DNA from: Parapedobacter soli
GTDB taxonomy: Bacteria; Bacteroidota; Bacteroidia; Sphingobacteriales; Sphingobacteriaceae
Direction of reading: 5' to 3'
DNA: 60,750 bases
Assembly: GCF_025460835.1 (NCBI RefSeq)
Contig: NZ_JAMXAY010000010.1
Location: forward strand, 51,125 to 111,874
Part shown: piece after piece, positions 29,631-60,713 of the stretch
Layout: each line of letters opens with the position of its first letter
Position numbering within the stretch: position 1 is the stretch's first letter
Notes under the pieces: model-generated
Seen by the model: only the letters and a program-made list of their open reading frames with translations
Told to the model about the DNA's origin: nothing
The model's database searches: none
Made by a program: the position numbers and the translations under genes

Positions 29631-30998
29631 CTATTCAATCCCGTATTTTTCCATCTTATTATACAACGTTTTGCGGTCGATATTAAGCATCTGCGCGGCC
29701 TTGCTCTTGTTATATTTGGCTTTCTGCAACACATCTATGATCAACTTCCGTTCGTGTGCTTCGCTATGGAGCCGCAAGTCGGGGTTATCTGCCGAAGGAG
29801 CCACCGCGGTATTTTCTATGGGCTTCCTTATGGCCAGTACCATTTCTTCGGGCAAAGCCGATGACTCTGCACGCTTACCGGGGGTGAGCAACACCATCCG
29901 CTTGATTACATTCTTCAGCTCCCGTAAGTTGCCCGGCCAATCATACGCATCGAAAATATCGGTCACTTCGCCGGCCAGTTCCTCCACATTCCGGCCCAGC
30001 TCTTCGTTGGCGTTAGCAACGAAGAAGTCGACAAACTGCTGGAAATCCCCGCGCCGGTCGCGGAGCGCCGGCACGATGATTTCAAACTCATTGATCCGGT
30101 GATAAAGGTCTTCCCTGAATTTCCCCGAGCCCAACAAGTCCTCGTTGGTCGCGGCGATAACCCGAACATCTACATTGACGGTCTTGTTGGCACCCACGGG
30201 TTGTATCACCTGCTCCTGCAGGGCACGCAGTAGCTTCACCTGTACGTCGTACGAGAGATTACCAATCTCGTCAAGGAACAGTGTACCGCCCGAGGCTTCT
30301 TCGAATTGGCCGACCTTATCGTTCAACGCGCCGGTAAACGATCCCTTTACATGCCCGAAAAGTTCGCTGGAGGCCAGCTCCTTAGACAGTGTACCGCAGT
30401 CGATGGAGACAAACGGCTTGTCGGCACGCTTACTCTTCCGATGGATCGCCCGGGCCACATATTCCTTGCCGGTACCGCTTTCCCCACGTATCAGCACAGA
30501 CATGTCGGTGGGCGCTACAAGCGCAATATACTCGTGGAGTTTACGTGCAGCACTGCTGGTACCCTCCACAAAATCGGGAGTGACAGCTGCCGAGCTGGCC
30601 TTGCGGGAAGGCGAGGTTGTTTTTGCCTTATCTGCCGACTTCCCTTCCAGGGCTTCATTCACTACCATCAGCAGCTCGTCGGGGTTAACGGGTTTGGTGA
30701 TGTAGTCAAACACCCCCTGCCGTATTGCATTCACTGCCGTACGGACATCGTTGAAACTAGTCATAATCACCGAAGGGACTACCTTTCCCCGGGCATGAAG
30801 CGCTTCCAACACGTCTAAACCAATACCGTCACCCAGTCGATAATCGAGCAGTATCAGTTGGAACTCATGTGCTTTGAGTGCTTCGACACCACCTTTTACA
30901 CTGTATTTGACTACAACGTCAAATCCTTTTTTCTTCAAAAAGTTTTCGAGTATGGTAGCAAAGGTAGTGTCGTCTTCTACCAAAAGGATATTGGCCAT
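29631..30998 (-). CDS. NtrC-type sigma54 response regulator
   Basis: 455 residues. Domains: receiver at 1-120 with phosphoacceptor Asp52 (LILLDYRLGDG); AAA+ sigma54-activating domain at about 145-385 (Walker A GESGTGKEYVARA, Walker [13 protein letters not shown], loop GSFTGA in place of the usual GAFTGA); and a Fis-type helix-turn-helix at the C-terminus (KSKAAQMLNIDRKTLYNKMEKYG). Phosphorylation should turn on sigma54 promoters. No histidine kinase is nearby, so it is an orphan. It follows isocitrate dehydrogenase by 36 bp and could be expressed with it. The Ala-to-Ser change in the loop keeps the Phe that contacts sigma54. Confidence 0.94.
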   Translation of the reverse strand: MANILLVEDDTTFATILENFLKKKGFDVVVKYSVKGGVEALKAHEFQLILLDYRLGDGIGLDVLEALHARGKVVPSVIMTSFNDVRTAVNAIRQGVFDYITKPVNPDELLMVVNEALEGKSADKAKTTSPSRKASSAAVTPDFVEGTSSAARKLHEYIALVAPTDMSVLIRGESGTGKEYVARAIHRKSKRADKPFVSIDCGTLSKELASSELFGHVKGSFTGALNDKVGQFEEASGGTLFLDEIGNLSYDVQVKLLRALQEQVIQPVGANKTVNVDVRVIAATNEDLLGSGKFREDLYHRINEFEIIVPALRDRRGDFQQFVDFFVANANEELGRNVEELAGEVTDIFDAYDWPGNLRELKNVIKRMVLLTPGKRAESSALPEEMVLAIRKPIENTAVAPSADNPDLRLHSEAHERKLIIDVLQKAKYNKSKAAQMLNIDRKTLYNKMEKYGIE

Positions 30999-52983: not shown

Positions 52984-53017
52984 ATTTCGCGTTATCGCGA
53001 AATATCGCAACCGATAT
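52984..53017. promoter_or_regulatory. Two dyads resembling sigma54 upstream activator sites
   Basis: ATTTCGCG-TTAT-CGCGAAAT is a perfect dyad at 52984-53003, and ATATCG-CAAC-CGATAT is a second at 53002-53017. Both have a four-base centre, and TATCGC repeats at 52993 and 53003, 10 bp apart. They lie about 97 and 82 bases upstream of the start predicted from the sigma54 element, the usual range for activator binding. Confidence 0.7.
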
Positions 53018-53064
53018 GCGGTACATCTCTATATAATAATCTCATTTTCAATAAAATAATTCAT

Positions 53065-53079
53065 TGGCACATCGCTTGT
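53065..53079 (+). promoter_or_regulatory. Sigma54 -24/-12 promoter of the YCII-esterase operon
   Basis: TGGCAC-N5-TTGT agrees with the consensus TGGCAC-N5-TTGC at all but the last base. Transcription would begin near 53091, giving a leader of about 35 bases. Confidence 0.7.
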
Positions 53080-53102
53080 CTACAGCCTATCATTGTTTAT
53101 TT

Positions 53103-53124
53103 TTTAACTATTTAACTATTTAAC
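53103..53124 (+). repeat. Short AT-rich tandem repeat in the YCII leader
   Basis: The unit TTTAACTA occurs at 53103-53110 and 53111-53118, followed by TTTAAC, ending one base before the start codon. It keeps the region around the start unstructured, which should help translation. Confidence 0.7.
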
Positions 53125-53125
53125 G

Positions 53126-53482
53126 ATGAATGAGTATCTATTAGTGATCCACCGGGATCTGACCAGCGATCAACCTCGCCCCACCGCAGAGCAAATGAAA
53201 TCAGCATTGAAGCCTTACCAGCATTGGGTTGCCACCATTGCAGACCAGAATAAGTTGGTGGCCCCACCAAAACGGTGGGACACCGACGGTAGGGTTATAC
53301 AGGCAAAAGCCGACGGATTGGCAATCAGTGAAGGGCCGCTCGCAACGGGCGACCGTTCTATCGGTGGGCTTTTCTTAGTGAAGGCAGACAACTACGAAGA
53401 CGCTGTCGAGCTCGCCAAAGCCTGTCCGATTATCCAGTATGGTGCCGTCGTTGAAGTCCGGATGGCCGTACCCACGGCATAG
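53126..53482 (+). CDS. YCII-related domain protein
   Basis: 118 residues, the size of a single YCII domain, a small ferredoxin-like fold (MNEYLLVIHRDLTS at the start; DGRVIQAKADGLAISEGPLATGDRSIGGLFLVKADNYEDAVELAKACP later, VEVR at the end). Relatives include DGPF/YCII proteins often encoded next to ECF sigma factors, and a Cl-muconolactone dehalogenase-like fold; most have no known activity. It is the first gene of a three-gene operon under a sigma54 promoter. Confidence 0.87.
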   Translation: MNEYLLVIHRDLTSDQPRPTAEQMKSALKPYQHWVATIADQNKLVAPPKRWDTDGRVIQAKADGLAISEGPLATGDRSIGGLFLVKADNYEDAVELAKACPIIQYGAVVEVRMAVPTA

Positions 53483-53491
53483 GCGCCCAAG

Positions 53492-53517
53492 CCCCCGCCG
53501 CATTTGAAAGGCGGGGG
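53492..53517 (+). other. GC hairpin between the YCII and esterase genes
   Basis: A perfect 8-base stem CCCCCGCC/GGCGGGGG with a 10-base loop, 10 bases after the YCII stop. There is no T-run after it, so it may stabilise the 3' end of the first cistron or cause partial termination rather than end the operon. Confidence 0.6.
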
Positions 53518-53565
53518 TCCTTAAGCTGAAAGCATAACGTAACAAGAACCAATAAATACAAGAAC

Positions 53566-54564
53566 ATGAACAATTTATCAAGATCAAACCGCACAGAAAT
53601 TGCGGATTATGCAACAGACCCGCTCCTGAGCCGGGAGACCAGGACCTTTCTAACGGCGTTGAATACCGCCGGCGGTGCCCCTATTGAAACCCTCACGAAA
53701 GAGGCTGCCCGCCAAGTGCTGGCGGATGCGCAGGCAGCGGTTCCTGTAGACCTTTCGGGAATCTCCATTACAGAAAAAACCATCATCAGCGAGGGTTACA
53801 AAGTGAAAATCCACGTGGTGCGGCCCCAGGGCACCGAAGGCAGGTTGCCCGCCTTCATCTTCATCCACGGGGGCGGCTGGATCCTCGGCGATTTCCCGAC
53901 CCACAAACGGCTGGTACGAGACCTGGTGGTCCAATCGGGCTGTGTGGCGGTGTTTGTGAACTACACCCCCTCGCCGGAAGCGCATTACCCACAGGCTGTC
54001 AATGAAATCTATGCAGTGACCAAATGGGTTGCAGCCAATGGTGATGAAATCGGTGTGGATGGCAGCAACATCGCCGTCGTGGGAAACAGTGTCGGCGGCA
54101 ACATGACCGCCGTGACCGGCCTGAAAGCACTGGAAAAGGGAGGCCCCAAGCTCAAACTACTGGTCATGATGTGGCCCATTGTAGATGCCGACTTCGAGAC
54201 AACCTCCTACCAACAGTTCGGTAAAGACAGGTTTCTCACCGCCTCCATGATGAAATGGATGTATGACCAATACACCACCGACCCCGATGAGCGCAAGGAG
54301 ATATTCGCATCGCCGTTGCAGGCCACGATAGCGCAGTTGAAGGACTTGCCGCCAACACTGATCCAGGTAGCTGAAAACGATATTCTACGCGATGAGGGCG
54401 AAGCATTCGGCAGGAAGCTGGATGAAGCCGGTGTGGCGGTTACCACCATCCGGTATAACGGTATGATCCACGATTTCGGCCTACTGAACGGATTAGCTAC
54501 ACTTCCTGCGGTCAAATCGCTTATCGCCCACGCAGCCGCAGCACTTCGCAGCCGGTTAGGTTAA
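53566..54564 (+). CDS. Alpha/beta hydrolase, HSL-family (type IV) esterase
   Basis: 332 residues, cytoplasmic (no signal). The HSL-family oxyanion motif is IHGGGWILGDF (His101-Gly-Gly-Gly); the catalytic triad is Ser175 (VVGNSVGGNM), Asp272 (AENDILRDEG) and His302 (MIHDFGLL). Members hydrolyse short- to medium-chain esters. It is 83 bp after the YCII gene with the hairpin between, and probably transcribed from the sigma54 promoter. Confidence 0.92.
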   Translation: MNNLSRSNRTEIADYATDPLLSRETRTFLTALNTAGGAPIETLTKEAARQVLADAQAAVPVDLSGISITEKTIISEGYKVKIHVVRPQGTEGRLPAFIFIHGGGWILGDFPTHKRLVRDLVVQSGCVAVFVNYTPSPEAHYPQAVNEIYAVTKWVAANGDEIGVDGSNIAVVGNSVGGNMTAVTGLKALEKGGPKLKLLVMMWPIVDADFETTSYQQFGKDRFLTASMMKWMYDQYTTDPDERKEIFASPLQATIAQLKDLPPTLIQVAENDILRDEGEAFGRKLDEAGVAVTTIRYNGMIHDFGLLNGLATLPAVKSLIAHAAAALRSRLG

Positions 54565-54627
54565 ATAAATAAGCAACTCATAAGTAAATTCTTATCCACT
54601 AAATAATTCACTAAAAATTTAACTGTT

Positions 54628-55413
54628 ATGACTACATTACATCAATTTGCATTGTGTGCCGTAATCGCACCGATTACCTTATTTTCCTCGGGTGTCCACC
54701 CCAAAAACAGACCGGCACTGAATGGCGTCAAAAACGTGGTCCTTGTACATGGCGCGTTTGCCGATGGCACCAGTTGGGCCGCGGTCATTTCCCGGCTACA
54801 GGAGAAAGGCTACCATGTGGCTGCCGTACAAAACCCACTCACCTCGCTTGAAGACGATGTGGCGGCTACCAAGCGCGCTATTGCCCTCATGGACGGCCCC
54901 GTATTGCTGGTGGGCCATTCCTGGGCAGGGATGGTCATCAGCGCCGCAGGCAACGACGCGAAAGTAGCCGGACTGGTGTATGTGGCTGCACTGATACCAG
55001 ACGAAGGCCAGTCGGTGGTCGATGTGAACGCCCCCTTCCCTCCGGGGCCGGGTGGAGCAGAATTCCGTCCCGATGCCGAAGGTTTCCTGTCCATGACCGC
55101 CAAGGGCATCCATGAAGACTTCGCCCAGGACCTGCCGGAAGCCCAACGGAATGTACTGGTGGCCACCCAAACACCGTGGGCTGCCGCCGCTACCGTACAG
55201 CCCGTACACAATGTGGCTTGGAAAACCAAGCCCTCATGGTGTATCGTGGCCACAGAAGACCGGATGATCAATCCCGACCTGGAACGGGCCACAGCAAAAA
55301 TGATCAATGCTACCACCATCGAGCTGGAAAGCAGCCATGTACCCATGGTATCGCAGCCCGATGCAGTTGCTAACTTCATCGATCAGGCAGCCAATCGGTT
55401 AAGCGCAAATTAG
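54628..55413 (+). CDS. Exported alpha/beta hydrolase, salicylate-esterase-like
   Basis: 261 residues with a probable signal peptide (MTTLHQFALCAVIAPITLFSSG). It belongs to the EstC/MES-like alpha/beta hydrolases: LVHGAFADGTSW, nucleophile Ser98 (VGHSWAGMV), Asp211 (ATEDRMINP) and His237 (SSHVPMVSQP). The enzyme hydrolyses small esters, and plant relatives act on methyl salicylate or hydroxynitriles. With the preceding cytoplasmic esterase it suggests a scheme in which an external ester is split and the product handled inside. It is the last gene of the operon. Confidence 0.88.
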   Translation: MTTLHQFALCAVIAPITLFSSGVHPKNRPALNGVKNVVLVHGAFADGTSWAAVISRLQEKGYHVAAVQNPLTSLEDDVAATKRAIALMDGPVLLVGHSWAGMVISAAGNDAKVAGLVYVAALIPDEGQSVVDVNAPFPPGPGGAEFRPDAEGFLSMTAKGIHEDFAQDLPEAQRNVLVATQTPWAAAATVQPVHNVAWKTKPSWCIVATEDRMINPDLERATAKMINATTIELESSHVPMVSQPDAVANFIDQAANRLSAN

Positions 55414-55429
55414 GCTCCATTTGAATGAT

Positions 55430-55462
55430 ATGGCGGCATCCTAGGAGATAGCCGCCATTTTT
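55430..55462 (+). terminator. Terminator of the YCII-esterase operon
   Basis: Stem ATGGCGGC (55430-55437) with GCCGCCAT (55451-55458), loop 13 bases, then a T-run. It stands between the operon and the convergent sigma54 activator gene. Confidence 0.88.
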
Positions 55463-55479
55463 ATGCTTTTATGGTTCCA

Positions 55480-58155
55480 TTAAACATATTGGGCCTTCGA
55501 TACGCCCAATTTTTTCATCTTCGAATGCAGTGTTGTGGCCGGTATCCCCAGGATGTCTGCTGCCCCGCCGCTGCCGGAAATCCGGCCATTGCACTTTTTC
55601 AATACCTTGATGATATACGAGGCTTCCATTTCCTGAAGTGCCCTGGGATAGCCATCGCCATCGTCTCCCACCCTGTCGCCGGCAACGGGCAGGGGCACCT
55701 CACTGATGGTGTCACCTTCGGTCAGCAATACGCTGCGCTCCATCAGGTGCTCCAGTTCCCTGACGTTCCCCGGCCACGTGTACCGCTTCAATGCGTTGAT
55801 TACTTCCGGCGTCAAATCCATCTGCCCCTTACCGCTGCTGCGGGTGTAGCGTGCTACGAAATAACGGGCCAGTGGTTCTACATCCTGCAACCGGTTTCGT
55901 AAAGGTGGCAACACAATGGGGAACACATTCAATCGGTAATACAAGTCGGAACGGAACCGTCCTGCATTTACTTCTTCTTCCAGCTTGCGGTTTGTGGCTG
56001 CAATAATCCGCACATTTACCTTAATGGTGGTCTTCCCGCCTACTCGCTCAAACTCACGTTCCTGTATAACCCTCAGTAACTTAACCTGTGTCTCCAAAGG
56101 CATTTCACCGATTTCATCGAGAAAAAGCGTGCTATCATCCGCTAACTCAAATTTCCCTATCCGGCGATCAACAGCGCCGGTAAATGCCCCGCGCTCATGA
56201 CCGAACAGTTCACTTTCAATCAGATTTGCCGGCAATGCCGCGCAGTTGACTTTTACCATCAGTTTATCTTTGCGCGGCGACGTGTTATGGACGGCCCGGG
56301 CAATCAACTCCTTGCCGGTACCCGTTTCACCCAACAGCAAAACCGTGGAGTTGGTATGCGCCACCAATGACATCAGGTGATAAACCTCTTGCATCTCCTC
56401 GCCGCTGCCGATGATTTCAGAGAAATTATAAATGGTCTTGATCTGCTCTTTGAGGTGATCATTTTCGATTTCGAGCATTTGTTTATAATGGAGCAGCTTC
56501 TCGTTGGCTAGGATATTTGATACAGCCACCGCCAGCTGCGAACAGATTGCCCGCAATAGATTGGGTTTGGTAATCAGCACCTCGTGGCGATCGATATGGA
56601 AAAAAGCTATCCCTACCACGGCACCACCGGCCCGCAAAGCAATGCTCAAAATCTGCCGAAGGCCGAGATGTTTCCAGAAACCCACATACGCCGGCATATC
56701 CAGCTCAGCCGCAAGTTCGTCCACACCCAATACAACAGGTTCATCTGACGCGACGATACGGCGGAAAACGGGATCGCTGACCCGGTATTTGGCTTTACTG
56801 ATCCGTTCAAAATCGGGGTCACGTACGATCGCTTCGCCCAGGTCTGTCATGAAATCACTATACGTGCGCCCGTCGTCGTCCACCTTTAAAATCCCGAATT
56901 CCTCGATGGCGAACAGCACCTTGAGCTTCGCGCTAACCAACCGCAGTAGATCGCTCCGGTTTCTCATCCGGGCAATTTCATCGCTAAGTACTAATAACTT
57001 TGATTTTTCTTCCTGCCGCCTGATGATTTCTTCATTGGCGAGGATATTGGAGATGGCGATAGACAGCTGGGCACATATCCCTTCCAGCAGTGCGGTGTTA
57101 ATGGCGTTGGTGATTACCCACAGTACGCCGAGCTCTTTTTCGCCGGCCCTGAGCGGCGTACCCACCATCTTTTCGAACCCCGGCTTATTATAGCCCACTT
57201 GTTTCCAGAATTCCACGTAGTAGTCGTCTGTCCCGCGGTGTATCTCTTCGGCAAAGTCGATGACCACCGGTATATTCCCGGCCATTACCCTTCCGGTAAT
57301 TCCATCTGTCGTTGTTATCTTCTTATTAAGCAGCGTTTTAAATAAAGGACTACCGATATAGTATGCGTCTTTATCGTGCAGAAAGGGGGTTAAAGTCACC
57401 CCGTCGCTGCTCACTATCCGGATAAAATAGGCCTTTATCTGGCTTAATTTCTTCAGCGACAGGTACACGACGTCAGCCAGTTCGTCTTTGGTTCTCACCG
57501 CGGCGATGCTGTTACTGAAATTCAGCAAAAACGACTTGTCCCACTCCTTTTCTTTGATTTCTTCATTCCTGATAATATTGGAAACAGCCGCCGCAAGCAG
57601 GGGCGACACCGCATTTATGATGTGCTGGAAGGGCACCGTGAAGCCATCGGGGATATCCGAAGCCAGGTGCAGGAATGCCATCACGCTTCCATCGCGCGTT
57701 AGGGGGGTCACCAACAGCGATGCGGTCGCCGCATGGTAGCTTTTCTTGGGCAATAGAGAATTGATGGGATCACGCGTCGATTCATCCGTTTTGAGTAAAA
57801 ATGCTTCTTCGGCCCCTAACAATCGTGTGATCAAGGGATTATCGGATGAAAACGGTTTAGGCGGGACTGGTTCGTTACCGGATGTTAAAAACGGGGTAAT
57901 GGTGTGATGATGTTCGTCTATCAAGGCAATACCCATGTGGGTAAATGCTAACAGGCGGCTTATCTTAGTTGAAAAAAAGGCCAACAGATCGTCACGCGCC
58001 CGTACCTGGGTTATGGCTTTACTCAAATCGAGTAAAATCTGTTTTTCGCCTTCGAGAGCCTTTACCTCGTCCCTGAGCCGCTCGATCCGACCCGGGTCGG
58101 TCCCCTTGGCTATATGAGCACGTTCTTTCCGCACTACATTTACGGGCCTTTCCAT
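55480..58155 (-). CDS. Sigma54-dependent transcriptional activator with three GAF domains
   Basis: 891 residues. A coiled start is followed by three GAF-type domains (about 45-190, 220-370 and 405-555), each preceded by a helical linker with an L-x-x-S/F-x-x-I pattern. The AAA+ domain (about 590-820) has [19 protein letters not shown] intact, and [13 protein letters not shown] Fis-type helix-turn-helix ends the protein ([21 protein letters not shown]). There is no receiver domain, so it senses ligands through GAF as FhlA and NorR do. Its position, convergent with the YCII-esterase operon that has a sigma54 promoter and dyads, makes that operon its likely target. Confidence 0.93.
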
Positions 58156-58394: not shown

Positions 58395-58847
58395 TCAACC
58401 GAACATGCCCACCTGATAGGTCCCCGGCGTATTCTCAAACGCGATATTGAAGCGGTTCCATGTGTTGATGGTTGTGATTGCCAAGGTCAGATCGATGACC
58501 TCTTCGTCTGTGAATTCGGCAGCTATAAGGAGATAAACAGACTCGGTAACCTCCACCGCGGTAATCGCTTCGGCCCATTCCAACGCCGCGCGCTCCCGGG
58601 AGGTATAATAAGGGGCTTCCCGCCAGGCACTGAGACCGTATAACCGCTGCTCGGTCTCGCCCATCGCACGTAATTCTTTCGCGTGCATATCTAGGCAGTA
58701 AGCGCAGGCGTTCAACTGAGAGACCCGGAAATCCACCAGCTCCAACAACTGTTTCTCAATGCTGGATTTCTTGAGGTACGCCCCGATATGATACAGCGGA
58801 GTCAATGCTTTTTTTCCTTTTTCAAATACGTTAATTTTAGTTTTCAT
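58395..58847 (-). CDS. Carboxymuconolactone decarboxylase family (AhpD-like) protein
   Basis: 150 residues. The AhpD-like redox motif C-x-x-C-x-x-x-H is visible as Cys48, Cys51 and His55 (NACAYCLDMHAKE), typical of the alkylhydroperoxidase-type branch rather than true muconolactone decarboxylases. It reduces peroxides or acts as a thiol relay. It begins 64 bp after the succinate dehydrogenase cytochrome b gene on the same strand, in the place where sdhA is normally found. Confidence 0.88.
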   Translation of the reverse strand: MKTKINVFEKGKKALTPLYHIGAYLKKSSIEKQLLELVDFRVSQLNACAYCLDMHAKELRAMGETEQRLYGLSAWREAPYYTSRERAALEWAEAITAVEVTESVYLLIAAEFTDEEVIDLTLAITTINTWNRFNIAFENTPGTYQVGMFG

Positions 58848-58911: not shown

Positions 58912-59583
58912 TTACCTCACCCACTTCAGGTAGATGGAAAGCGGCATGAGTGAAAACGCGAGAAGCATTACCAGTGAAAACATGCGTCCCGTCCACCGGA
59001 TGAGTCCGATATATTTACTATGGTCAATGCCCAAGCTTTGGAATGCGCTTGAAAATCCGTGCAACAAATGCCAATACAATGAGGCGGCACCCACCAGATA
59101 TATCGCTACTTCGATCGGATTGCTGAATTTTTGAAGCATCATTGCGTAAAGTGGAAGTTCCTCCCCATAGCGGAATTGATGCACCCGGTTGGGTATCCAG
59201 AAATTGGAAGTATGTACCACAAGGAACAGTAATATGAGGGTTCCTAATAGGGTCATACTCCGGCTATACCACGTGCTTCGGCGGGGCGCGTGTACCACCG
59301 CGTAGCGAATGGGCCGTGCCGCACGATTGGATCGCCACAACAGCAGGCCCTGTACGATGTGCCACAAGATACCGACTACCAGTACCACTTCAATGGCACG
59401 GATTACGGGGTTTGTGGCCATGATGTGCGCACCCTTCGTAAACGTCTCACCGTTATCGTTGATAAAGATGAGTGCATTGATGCTCGCATGCACCACCAGG
59501 AAACTGATAAGAAACAATCCGGTCAAAGCCATCGTCATTTTCTTACCGATGGAACTAGTCATGATGCCGTATAACCCGCCCAT
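58912..59583 (-). CDS. Succinate dehydrogenase cytochrome b subunit (orphan)
   Basis: 223 residues from ATG 59583 (ATG 59592 would add three). Five membrane helices are seen; conserved heme ligand candidates are His in VVHASINALI, WHIVQGLLLW, VVHTSNFWI and WHLLHGFSSAFQ, the pattern of the Bacteroidota/B. subtilis type cytochrome b558. In other genomes sdhA and sdhB follow directly, but here the next gene on the strand is the AhpD-like gene and no sdhA/B is within the window. It may be a second copy. An upstream 59-residue frame ends at the start codon. Confidence 0.88.
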   Translation of the reverse strand: MGGLYGIMTSSIGKKMTMALTGLFLISFLVVHASINALIFINDNGETFTKGAHIMATNPVIRAIEVVLVVGILWHIVQGLLLWRSNRAARPIRYAVVHAPRRSTWYSRSMTLLGTLILLFLVVHTSNFWIPNRVHQFRYGEELPLYAMMLQKFSNPIEVAIYLVGAASLYWHLLHGFSSAFQSLGIDHSKYIGLIRWTGRMFSLVMLLAFSLMPLSIYLKWVR

Positions 59584-59584
59584 G

Positions 59585-59764
59585 TCAATCATTCATTTGC
59601 CGTAGCGGCTGTTCCACCATTCGGATGCTATCATTGAGGAATTCGCTGCCGAATGTCGTGCAATCGCTTTCCGCTTTCATATTGCCGTGCTGGATAATGC
59701 CGTCCAATAAATAGTGGACCATCATTCCGAACATACTTCTGTAAACCATGTCGACTCGTTTCAT
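59585..59764 (-). CDS. Possible 59-residue protein upstream of the cytochrome b gene
   Basis: An open frame from ATG 59764 to a TGA at 59585 encodes 59 residues (begins MKRVDMVYRSMFGMMVHYLL, ends PLRQMND). No family was recognised. Its stop lies one base before ATG 59583 of the cytochrome b gene and overlaps the alternative ATG 59592, an arrangement typical of translational coupling. Codon use is in line with neighbours, but the length alone allows chance. Confidence 0.35.
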   Translation of the reverse strand: MKRVDMVYRSMFGMMVHYLLDGIIQHGNMKAESDCTTFGSEFLNDSIRMVEQPLRQMND

Positions 59765-59948
59765 TGCTAAATATTAAATACCCATAATGTGCTGCCTTCA
59801 TTTCCCGGCGTAACTGATCGGTTTTCATGGCAAGTCCATGCCGACGTAGGATTTATACGTGTACGAACGGGTGGAAAGTACACGCCCTTTACAGCCGCCT
59901 CCGGGAGCTGACACCCGTCATCTTCGTTACGAAGCCAGTTGGGATGTA
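59765..59948. other. Intergenic region without a recognised gene
   Basis: 184 bp between the NmrA-like gene and the small frame. A near sigma54-like minus-strand sequence (CGGCAT-N4-TTGC, near 59830-59843) has the wrong spacing. No clear -7 element is visible. Confidence 0.5.
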
Positions 59949-60713
59949 TTAAGAAACATTTTCCAATTTTCGTTGAGTAATCAACCAATCCGTTACCCTT
60001 TTGTTGCCCACATGCGCAAAACCGCGGGGCAAGAGCGTGGCTTCCGTGAGTAAAGCGCCGAAATAGCGGGCCCACGGATCGCCAACAACCTCCCGCTGAT
60101 CGCCGGTAGCGTCCAGATACAGTTGGATTAATTCAGGCAGCGGGAAACGGTCGGGCCCGGCGATTTCCACCGTACCGTTAACAGGCCGTTCGAGCGTTAC
60201 CTCCGTGAGGGCCGCCGCCACATCGTCTGAGGCAATCGGTTGGACCAATGCGGTAGGCACCCGCACTGTTCCCTCTTCCGAGGCCGACTTGACAATACCC
60301 CCCAGGAATTCAAAGAATTGAGTGGAATGCACAATCGTATATGGCATACCCGATTCGCGGATAAGCTTTTCCTGTGCGATTTTAGCCCGGAAATAGCCGC
60401 TTTCCGACAGCAACTCGGTGCCCACAACGGATAGCGCCACATGGTGGCCTACCCCGGTGGCACGCTCTGCCGCCAACAGGTTCCGGCTTGAAGTCTCAAA
60501 AAATTCGAGTACTGCCCGGTCTTCGAAAGAAGGGGAGTTTGATACATCGACGACAACCTGCGCATTTTCCAGCGCTTGTGTTAGCCCTTCACCCGTGATG
60601 GTGTCTACCCCTGTCGCCGGCGATGCGGCGAACACTTCGTGGCCAAGTACGCGCAGGTTGTGCACTAATTTACTTCCAATGAGGCCCGTGCCTCCAATTA
60701 CAACAATTTTCAT
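59949..60713 (-). CDS. NmrA-like NAD(P)-binding reductase (atypical SDR)
   Basis: 254 residues. The Rossmann motif GGTGLIGSKL is at residues 8-17; the sequence HHVALSVVGTELLSESGYFRAKIAQEKLIRESGMPYTIVHSTQFFEFL is typical of the NmrA/isoflavone reductase-like atypical SDR family, which lacks the Tyr-x-x-x-Lys pair. Family members act as NADPH sensors or reduce quinones and other small molecules. The substrate is unknown. Only 37 bases of upstream sequence are in the window, so its promoter cannot be judged. Confidence 0.87.
   Translation of the reverse strand: MKIVVIGGTGLIGSKLVHNLRVLGHEVFAASPATGVDTITGEGLTQALENAQVVVDVSNSPSFEDRAVLEFFETSSRNLLAAERATGVGHHVALSVVGTELLSESGYFRAKIAQEKLIRESGMPYTIVHSTQFFEFLGGIVKSASEEGTVRVPTALVQPIASDDVAAALTEVTLERPVNGTVEIAGPDRFPLPELIQLYLDATGDQREVVGDPWARYFGALLTEATLLPRGFAHVGNKRVTDWLITQRKLENVS

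Follow-up and report, generated by a model that had tools for sequence, protein, structure and literature searches.

A probable local sigma54 module with an FhlA-like triple-GAF activator in Parapedobacter soli

Promoter and activator

The window analysed here is a stretch of 60,750 nucleotides of the Parapedobacter soli genome (contig NZ_JAMXAY010000010.1, positions 51,125 to 111,874), towards the end of which a YCII gene and two esterase genes converge on a gene for a sigma54 activator with three GAF domains. Sequence comparison makes it very probable that these form a local sigma54 module, in which the FhlA-like activator would bind dyads upstream of the YCII gene and drive YCII, probably the esterases, and probably the genes for an NmrA-like protein, an SdhC-like cytochrome (SDHC) and a carboxymuconolactone decarboxylase family protein (CMD), with a likely role in oxidative or electrophilic stress. 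The features on which this reading turns are as follows.

52984..53003 (no strand): dyad 1, ATTTCGCG-N4-CGCGAAAT, a putative activator site that lines up with a block at the same distance in Olivibacter
53002..53017 (no strand): dyad 2, ATATCG-N4-CGATAT, the left half of which is kept in Olivibacter and the right half not
53065..53080 (+): predicted sigma54 -24/-12 element TGGCACATCGCTTGTC (TGGCAC-N5-TTGT at 53065-53079; predicted start 53091)
53126..53482 (+): YCII-domain protein, 118 amino acids (Pfam match)
53566..54564 (+): Abhydrolase_3 (ABH3; hormone-sensitive-lipase type) esterase, 332 amino acids (domain match)
54628..55413 (+): Abhydrolase_6 (ABH6) hydrolase, 261 amino acids (domain match; homologues in other Sphingobacteriaceae)
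55480..58155 (-): sigma54 activator, triple-GAF, AAA+ (GAFTGA) and FhlA-like helix-turn-helix (HTH), 891 amino acids (domain matches, motif)

The three genes at 53126-55413 and the convergent activator gene lie exactly where the original prediction had put them, and its description of the promoter was equally accurate: both dyads have four-base centres, and TGGCAC-N5-TTGT is placed such that they lie about 97 and 82 bases upstream of the predicted start. This start follows if the GG is set at -25/-24, which puts the dyad centres at -97.5 and -81.5. The GG of a sigma54 promoter is thus present at -24, but the window has GT instead of GC at -12; GT is also found there in Olivibacter and in several g14 and g16 promoters. 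Neither the element nor the dyads are significant alone. With a scoring matrix built from a consensus, scores equal to that of the window element turned up about ten times in the real window and 7-19 times in 60 kb of shuffled sequence. When the intergenic stretch was shuffled, 114 of 2000 versions contained an inverted repeat with arms of 8 bp and a spacer no longer than 8. The exact motif TGGCAC-N5-TTGTC was not enriched genome-wide (12 matches in nine genomes against 21 in the reversed control). The case must therefore rest on conservation among relatives. The pattern of dyad plus element has three matches in the genome of the window, and only the window match lies outside a reading frame.

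The activator comprises GAF_3, GAF_2, GAF, Sigma54_activat, AAA_lid_14 and HTH_8 domains and, as had been claimed, an intact GAFTGA motif; it thus has the AAA+ domain with GAFTGA and the C-terminal Fis-type HTH of a bacterial enhancer-binding protein, and RpoN is encoded in the same genome (E 1.8e-55). The original prediction had placed the dyads in the range used by activators of the NtrC/NorR class; the DNA-binding half of the activator is more like that of FhlA than that of NorR, the best NCBIfam score being 420.2 bits for FhlA against 378.6 for NorR. The last GAF domain, AAA+ core and Fis-type HTH align end to end with Escherichia coli FhlA, with 195 of 394 residues identical (49%) from the last GAF through the C-terminus. 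The FhlA site is given as CATTTCGTACGAAATG in an excerpt of PMC4987338, and its half-sites, ATTTCG and CGAAAT, equal those of dyad 1. An FhlA orthologue was considered and rejected: the score falls well under the equivalog cut-off of 830 bits, the window protein has three Pfam GAF matches, the site spacing is unlike that of CATTTCGTACGAAATG, and the neighbours are YCII, hydrolases, CMD, SDHC and NmrA, with no hydrogenase or formate genes recognised and hence none of the formate hydrogenlyase targets. Judged by its sequence, the activator would work like FhlA yet is no FhlA orthologue. NorR adjoins the genes under its control, as the window activator probably does. The window activator shares the GAF-AAA+-HTH plan with NorR but scores below the NorR cut-off of 476 bits, and nitric oxide targets are absent near it; the NorR site reads GT-N7-AC in the excerpt of PMC4987338.

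Conservation among relatives

Olivibacter domesticus DSM 18733, of the same family (Sphingobacteriaceae), encodes an orthologous activator (886 residues) followed by NmrA (80% identity to the window), a pirin-like gene, YCII (69-70%), SDHC (75%) and CMD (73%). The 280 bp between the activator and NmrA genes hold the sigma54 element TGGCACGTCACTTGTC, which equals TGGCACATCGCTTGTC at 14 of 16 bases. When the two sequences are aligned at TGGC, the dyad block agrees unshifted at 18 of 23 bases, which was reached by none of 5000 shuffled pairs, and the rest of the intergenic DNA is mostly not alignable. The promoter is conserved as islands, before NmrA in Olivibacter but before YCII in the window. 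Conservation of the dyads and the -24/-12 element, which the original prediction had proposed as a check, is thus found for the element, the block and the spacing and not for the gene that they precede. Pirin and catalase are among the Olivibacter module partners. In Olivibacter (L086 and L087), three activator genes of the triple-GAF type are found in a span of about 14 kb, close to ABH3, ABH6 and catalase genes.

The GAF half of the activator is sporadic. As a single-sequence query it matched in seven of 150 relative genomes and in none of the eight of the same genus (G001-G008); against contigs it gave no match, and the loci were found by the genome search and an NmrA query instead. A nine-row profile matched 50 of 399 family genomes at 1e-40, with 17 places scoring below 1e-240. 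An NmrA gene lies within 2.5 kb of the activator in 15 of these 17 places, often with SDHC between. Of the other two, G391 has ABH3 and ABH6 beside the activator and G090 has neither, although its unlinked NmrA gene bears the same dyad and element. In two genera, footprint alignments reveal TTTCACT-type dyads in tandem, spaced by about 30 bp and followed by a sigma54 element. Outside the clade of close activators the same layout stands before ABH3 in Olivibacter (L086, arms of 14 bp) and, in L094 and L287, before ABH6. This recurrence, in Olivibacter and in other genera with other targets, supports the proposal of a sigma54 promoter with enhancer-type dyads under the convergent activator. The first esterase and YCII are common in genomes without the activator, so the argument makes no use of single-gene conservation. 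Two same-genus genomes that lack the activator have CMD-YCII units with no dyad and sigma54-like element before them, although the annotated starts of these units are uncertain.

A dyad with a sigma54-like element precedes NmrA in ten of 15 genomes with a close activator and in none of 14 without (matched in 2 of 2900 shuffles), and when one fixed rule, a sigma54-like element with a dyad 50-75 bp upstream, is applied to every gene in the stretches fetched, ten of 31 module promoters pass against two of 426 other genes (Fisher 2.7e-11). It is a point against the module that these p-values overstate the association, since the regular expression of the NmrA test and the rules were fixed after some promoters were known and the genomes are related. 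The 14 include G399, with a more distant activator (4e-180), and L199 was omitted as its contig ends 37 bases before NmrA. The failures among the 15 are L198 (Olivibacter, with an imperfect dyad), L203, L204, L211 and L219. Of the two non-module genes that pass, one encodes NmrA and comes from a genome with the activator at another place. The NmrA promoters of genomes lacking the activator (L207, L213, L214, L216, L218 and L220) share a different block around TGTCCAAT, which suggests the site of another regulator. A second sigma54 activator gene is often found beside the GAF activator (L287:9235-11154, L288:9105-10508 and others), that in L288 being a response regulator.

The recognition helix reads IPGNTLHSK in 14 of the activators examined, and a TTTCACT-type dyad or close variant is found at an NmrA gene for 13 of these (that of L282 was spotted by eye in an alignment and that of L090 lies at an unlinked NmrA gene). 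L283 has the helix but no such dyad. Five activators with other helices go with other dyads: TTTCGC (window and L094), TTACGA/GCGATA (Olivibacter), TTTACG (L086) and TTTACTT (L287). Such a correspondence would be expected if each activator bound its own dyad, but helix and dyad both also track phylogeny.

Module genes and their surroundings

The remaining features of the locus are the following.

53491..53518 (+): 9-bp GC hairpin with no T tract, separating YCII from the first esterase (folding)
55430..55458 (no strand): hairpin between the convergent genes, then T-rich DNA on the + strand; likely terminator
58395..58847 (-): AhpD-like CMD family protein with a CAYC (CxxC) motif (domain matches)
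58912..59592 (-): SdhC-like cytochrome b558 family protein, SDHC (family match; no sdhA- or sdhB-sized neighbour)
59949..60713 (-): NmrA-like NAD(P)-binding protein (domain match; promoter beyond the contig end)

The YCII match to PF03795 is marginal, at 24.2 bits against a gathering cut-off of 24; a close relative of this protein in L098 scores 38.9 bits. The closest solved chain to the first esterase is 4ob8_A (E 1.9e-125), and the second esterase is predicted to be exported from a hydrophobic N-terminus judged by eye. YCII and both esterases had been taken for one operon. This is likely but not certain, because a strong GC hairpin without a T tract follows YCII; the stretch at 53491-53518 folds at -23.7 kcal/mol, and six of 200 shuffles folded equally well.

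The self-contained YCII-esterase module of the original prediction is probably too narrow. NmrA and SDHC adjoin the activator gene in relatives, and in the window CMD, SDHC and NmrA lie directly behind the activator gene, so the regulon probably extends to these three genes. The SDHC gene at 58912-59592 (-) encodes an orphan SdhC-like haem protein and adjoins NmrA in several relatives; the protein retains the histidines common to all eight aligned SdhC sequences, and a second SdhC is encoded elsewhere in the genome. About 150 bp after NmrA (window ~59795-59960, -; L087:8480-8625) contain long blocks identical between the window and Olivibacter, with one further partial match in 120 genomes. 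A structured RNA was considered for this stretch and rejected, as there was no Rfam match and its folding was not unusual. At ~59600-59790 (-) the window has a short degenerate stretch like the start of an Olivibacter gene (L087:8654-9067), which we read as a gene remnant.

YCII and ECF42 sigma factors

The fetched stretches contain 14 YCII genes. Apart from those in the modules of the window and Olivibacter there are 12, of which nine have an ECF42-type sigma gene (recognised as Sigma70_r2 plus DUF6596) beside them; the YCII gene of L286 is at a stretch edge, where a neighbour was possibly missed. No ECF42 gene was found in the stretches covered around the window and Olivibacter YCII genes, and the window reading frames gave no match at E 1e-20. 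In a YCII tree the window and Olivibacter copies group together (support 100/99), beside an ECF42-linked copy from the same genus (100/97). Both settings have YCII, often with CMD, as a neighbour gene, but the YCII of the window and Olivibacter belongs to a sigma54 module. A possible intermediate is seen in G391, where GAF activators have a YCII-ECF42 pair as their neighbour (L290). ECF42 systems in Pseudomonas putida have been linked to oxidative stress and antibiotics, according to an excerpt of PMC8999054.

A broader proposal, which is speculative and on balance improbable, would see a family of plug-in sigma54 modules across Sphingobacteriaceae. An FhlA-like triple-GAF activator would diverge in step with a dyad of its own, and the modules would have captured stress genes again and again, among them a YCII-CMD pair from ECF42 control; YCII, a proposed part of ECF42 signalling, may then be the signal partner of the GAF activator.

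Alternative readings

Several further observations weigh against a local module. Under the fixed rule, a strict dyad test, 21 of the 31 module promoters fail, and so does the promoter of Olivibacter NmrA itself. Over whole genomes the pattern of dyad plus element is not enriched (60 matches in 15 genomes against 61 in the reversed control). In the window, no sigma54-like element was found before CMD, SDHC or the activator gene, and the NmrA promoter of this genome is off the contig. The half-sites of dyad 1 stand 8 bases apart against 2 in CATTTCGTACGAAATG, as excerpted from PMC4987338, and dyad spacing differs between genera. The genome also encodes five clear sigma54 activators, one of them at about 30078-30563 of the window, and in several relatives the GAF activator gene is accompanied by another sigma54 activator gene, in one case for a response regulator; another activator of the genome, such as the response regulator encoded elsewhere in the window, might thus drive the promoter, with the convergent gene a mere neighbour. 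We consider this very unlikely, as targets of the same kinds are found repeatedly next to orthologous activators and the promoter dyads track both the presence of the activator and its helix. It is more improbable still that the sigma54 match arose by chance over an ordinary housekeeping-type promoter: a sequence TTGGCA-N18-TATCAT (10 of 12 positions) does overlap the element at 53064-53093, equally good sigma54 matches are common by chance and the -12 core is GT, but sigma70-like matches are no commoner than expected (four found against 5.5), and Olivibacter retains TGGCAC-N5-TTGTC and not TATCAT, with TTGT present in the g14 and g16 promoters too.

A different question is what a local sigma54 module would respond to. 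The original prediction had the activator sense an ester or its product and, on one version of this idea, induce the two esterases for feeding. In several lineages such activators do have ABH3 and ABH6 genes as neighbours, some of which (L086, L094 and L287) carry a dyad and element of their own. The commonest partner, however, is no esterase but NmrA, often with SDHC; there are also pirin, catalase and AhpD-like genes, and the neighbourhoods viewed, where not every neighbour was identified, showed no recognisable gene for a transporter or a catabolic pathway. We regard an ester-utilisation switch as rather doubtful, and an ester or its product as the ligand found no specific support. Because the recurring partners are NmrA, the AhpD-like CMD with its CxxC motif, pirin and catalase, and ECF42 systems in P. 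putida are linked to oxidative stress, we think that the signal is more likely to be oxidative or electrophilic stress than an ester used as a nutrient.

Proposed mechanism and significance

For the local module we propose that the three GAF domains would sense a small molecule or redox signal, upon which the active protein would bind the dyads at 52984-53017 and assemble its AAA+ ring. The ring would contact sigma54-RNA polymerase held at 53065-53080, and ATP hydrolysis would allow transcription of YCII to begin, probably together with that of both esterase genes. Control by this activator probably extends to NmrA, SDHC and CMD, which lie behind its own gene. The products would most likely handle an oxidative or electrophilic insult and its ester or lactone adducts.

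Going by the search entries, no paper that the literature searches returned describes this module. Sigma54 control is said to be little explored in phyla other than Pseudomonadota in the abstract of PMC12316311. The module would provide a testable set of promoter, enhancer and activator in Bacteroidota, with natural variation of helix and dyad across genera. It is also a case of genes that seem to have exchanged control by one sigma factor class for control by another.

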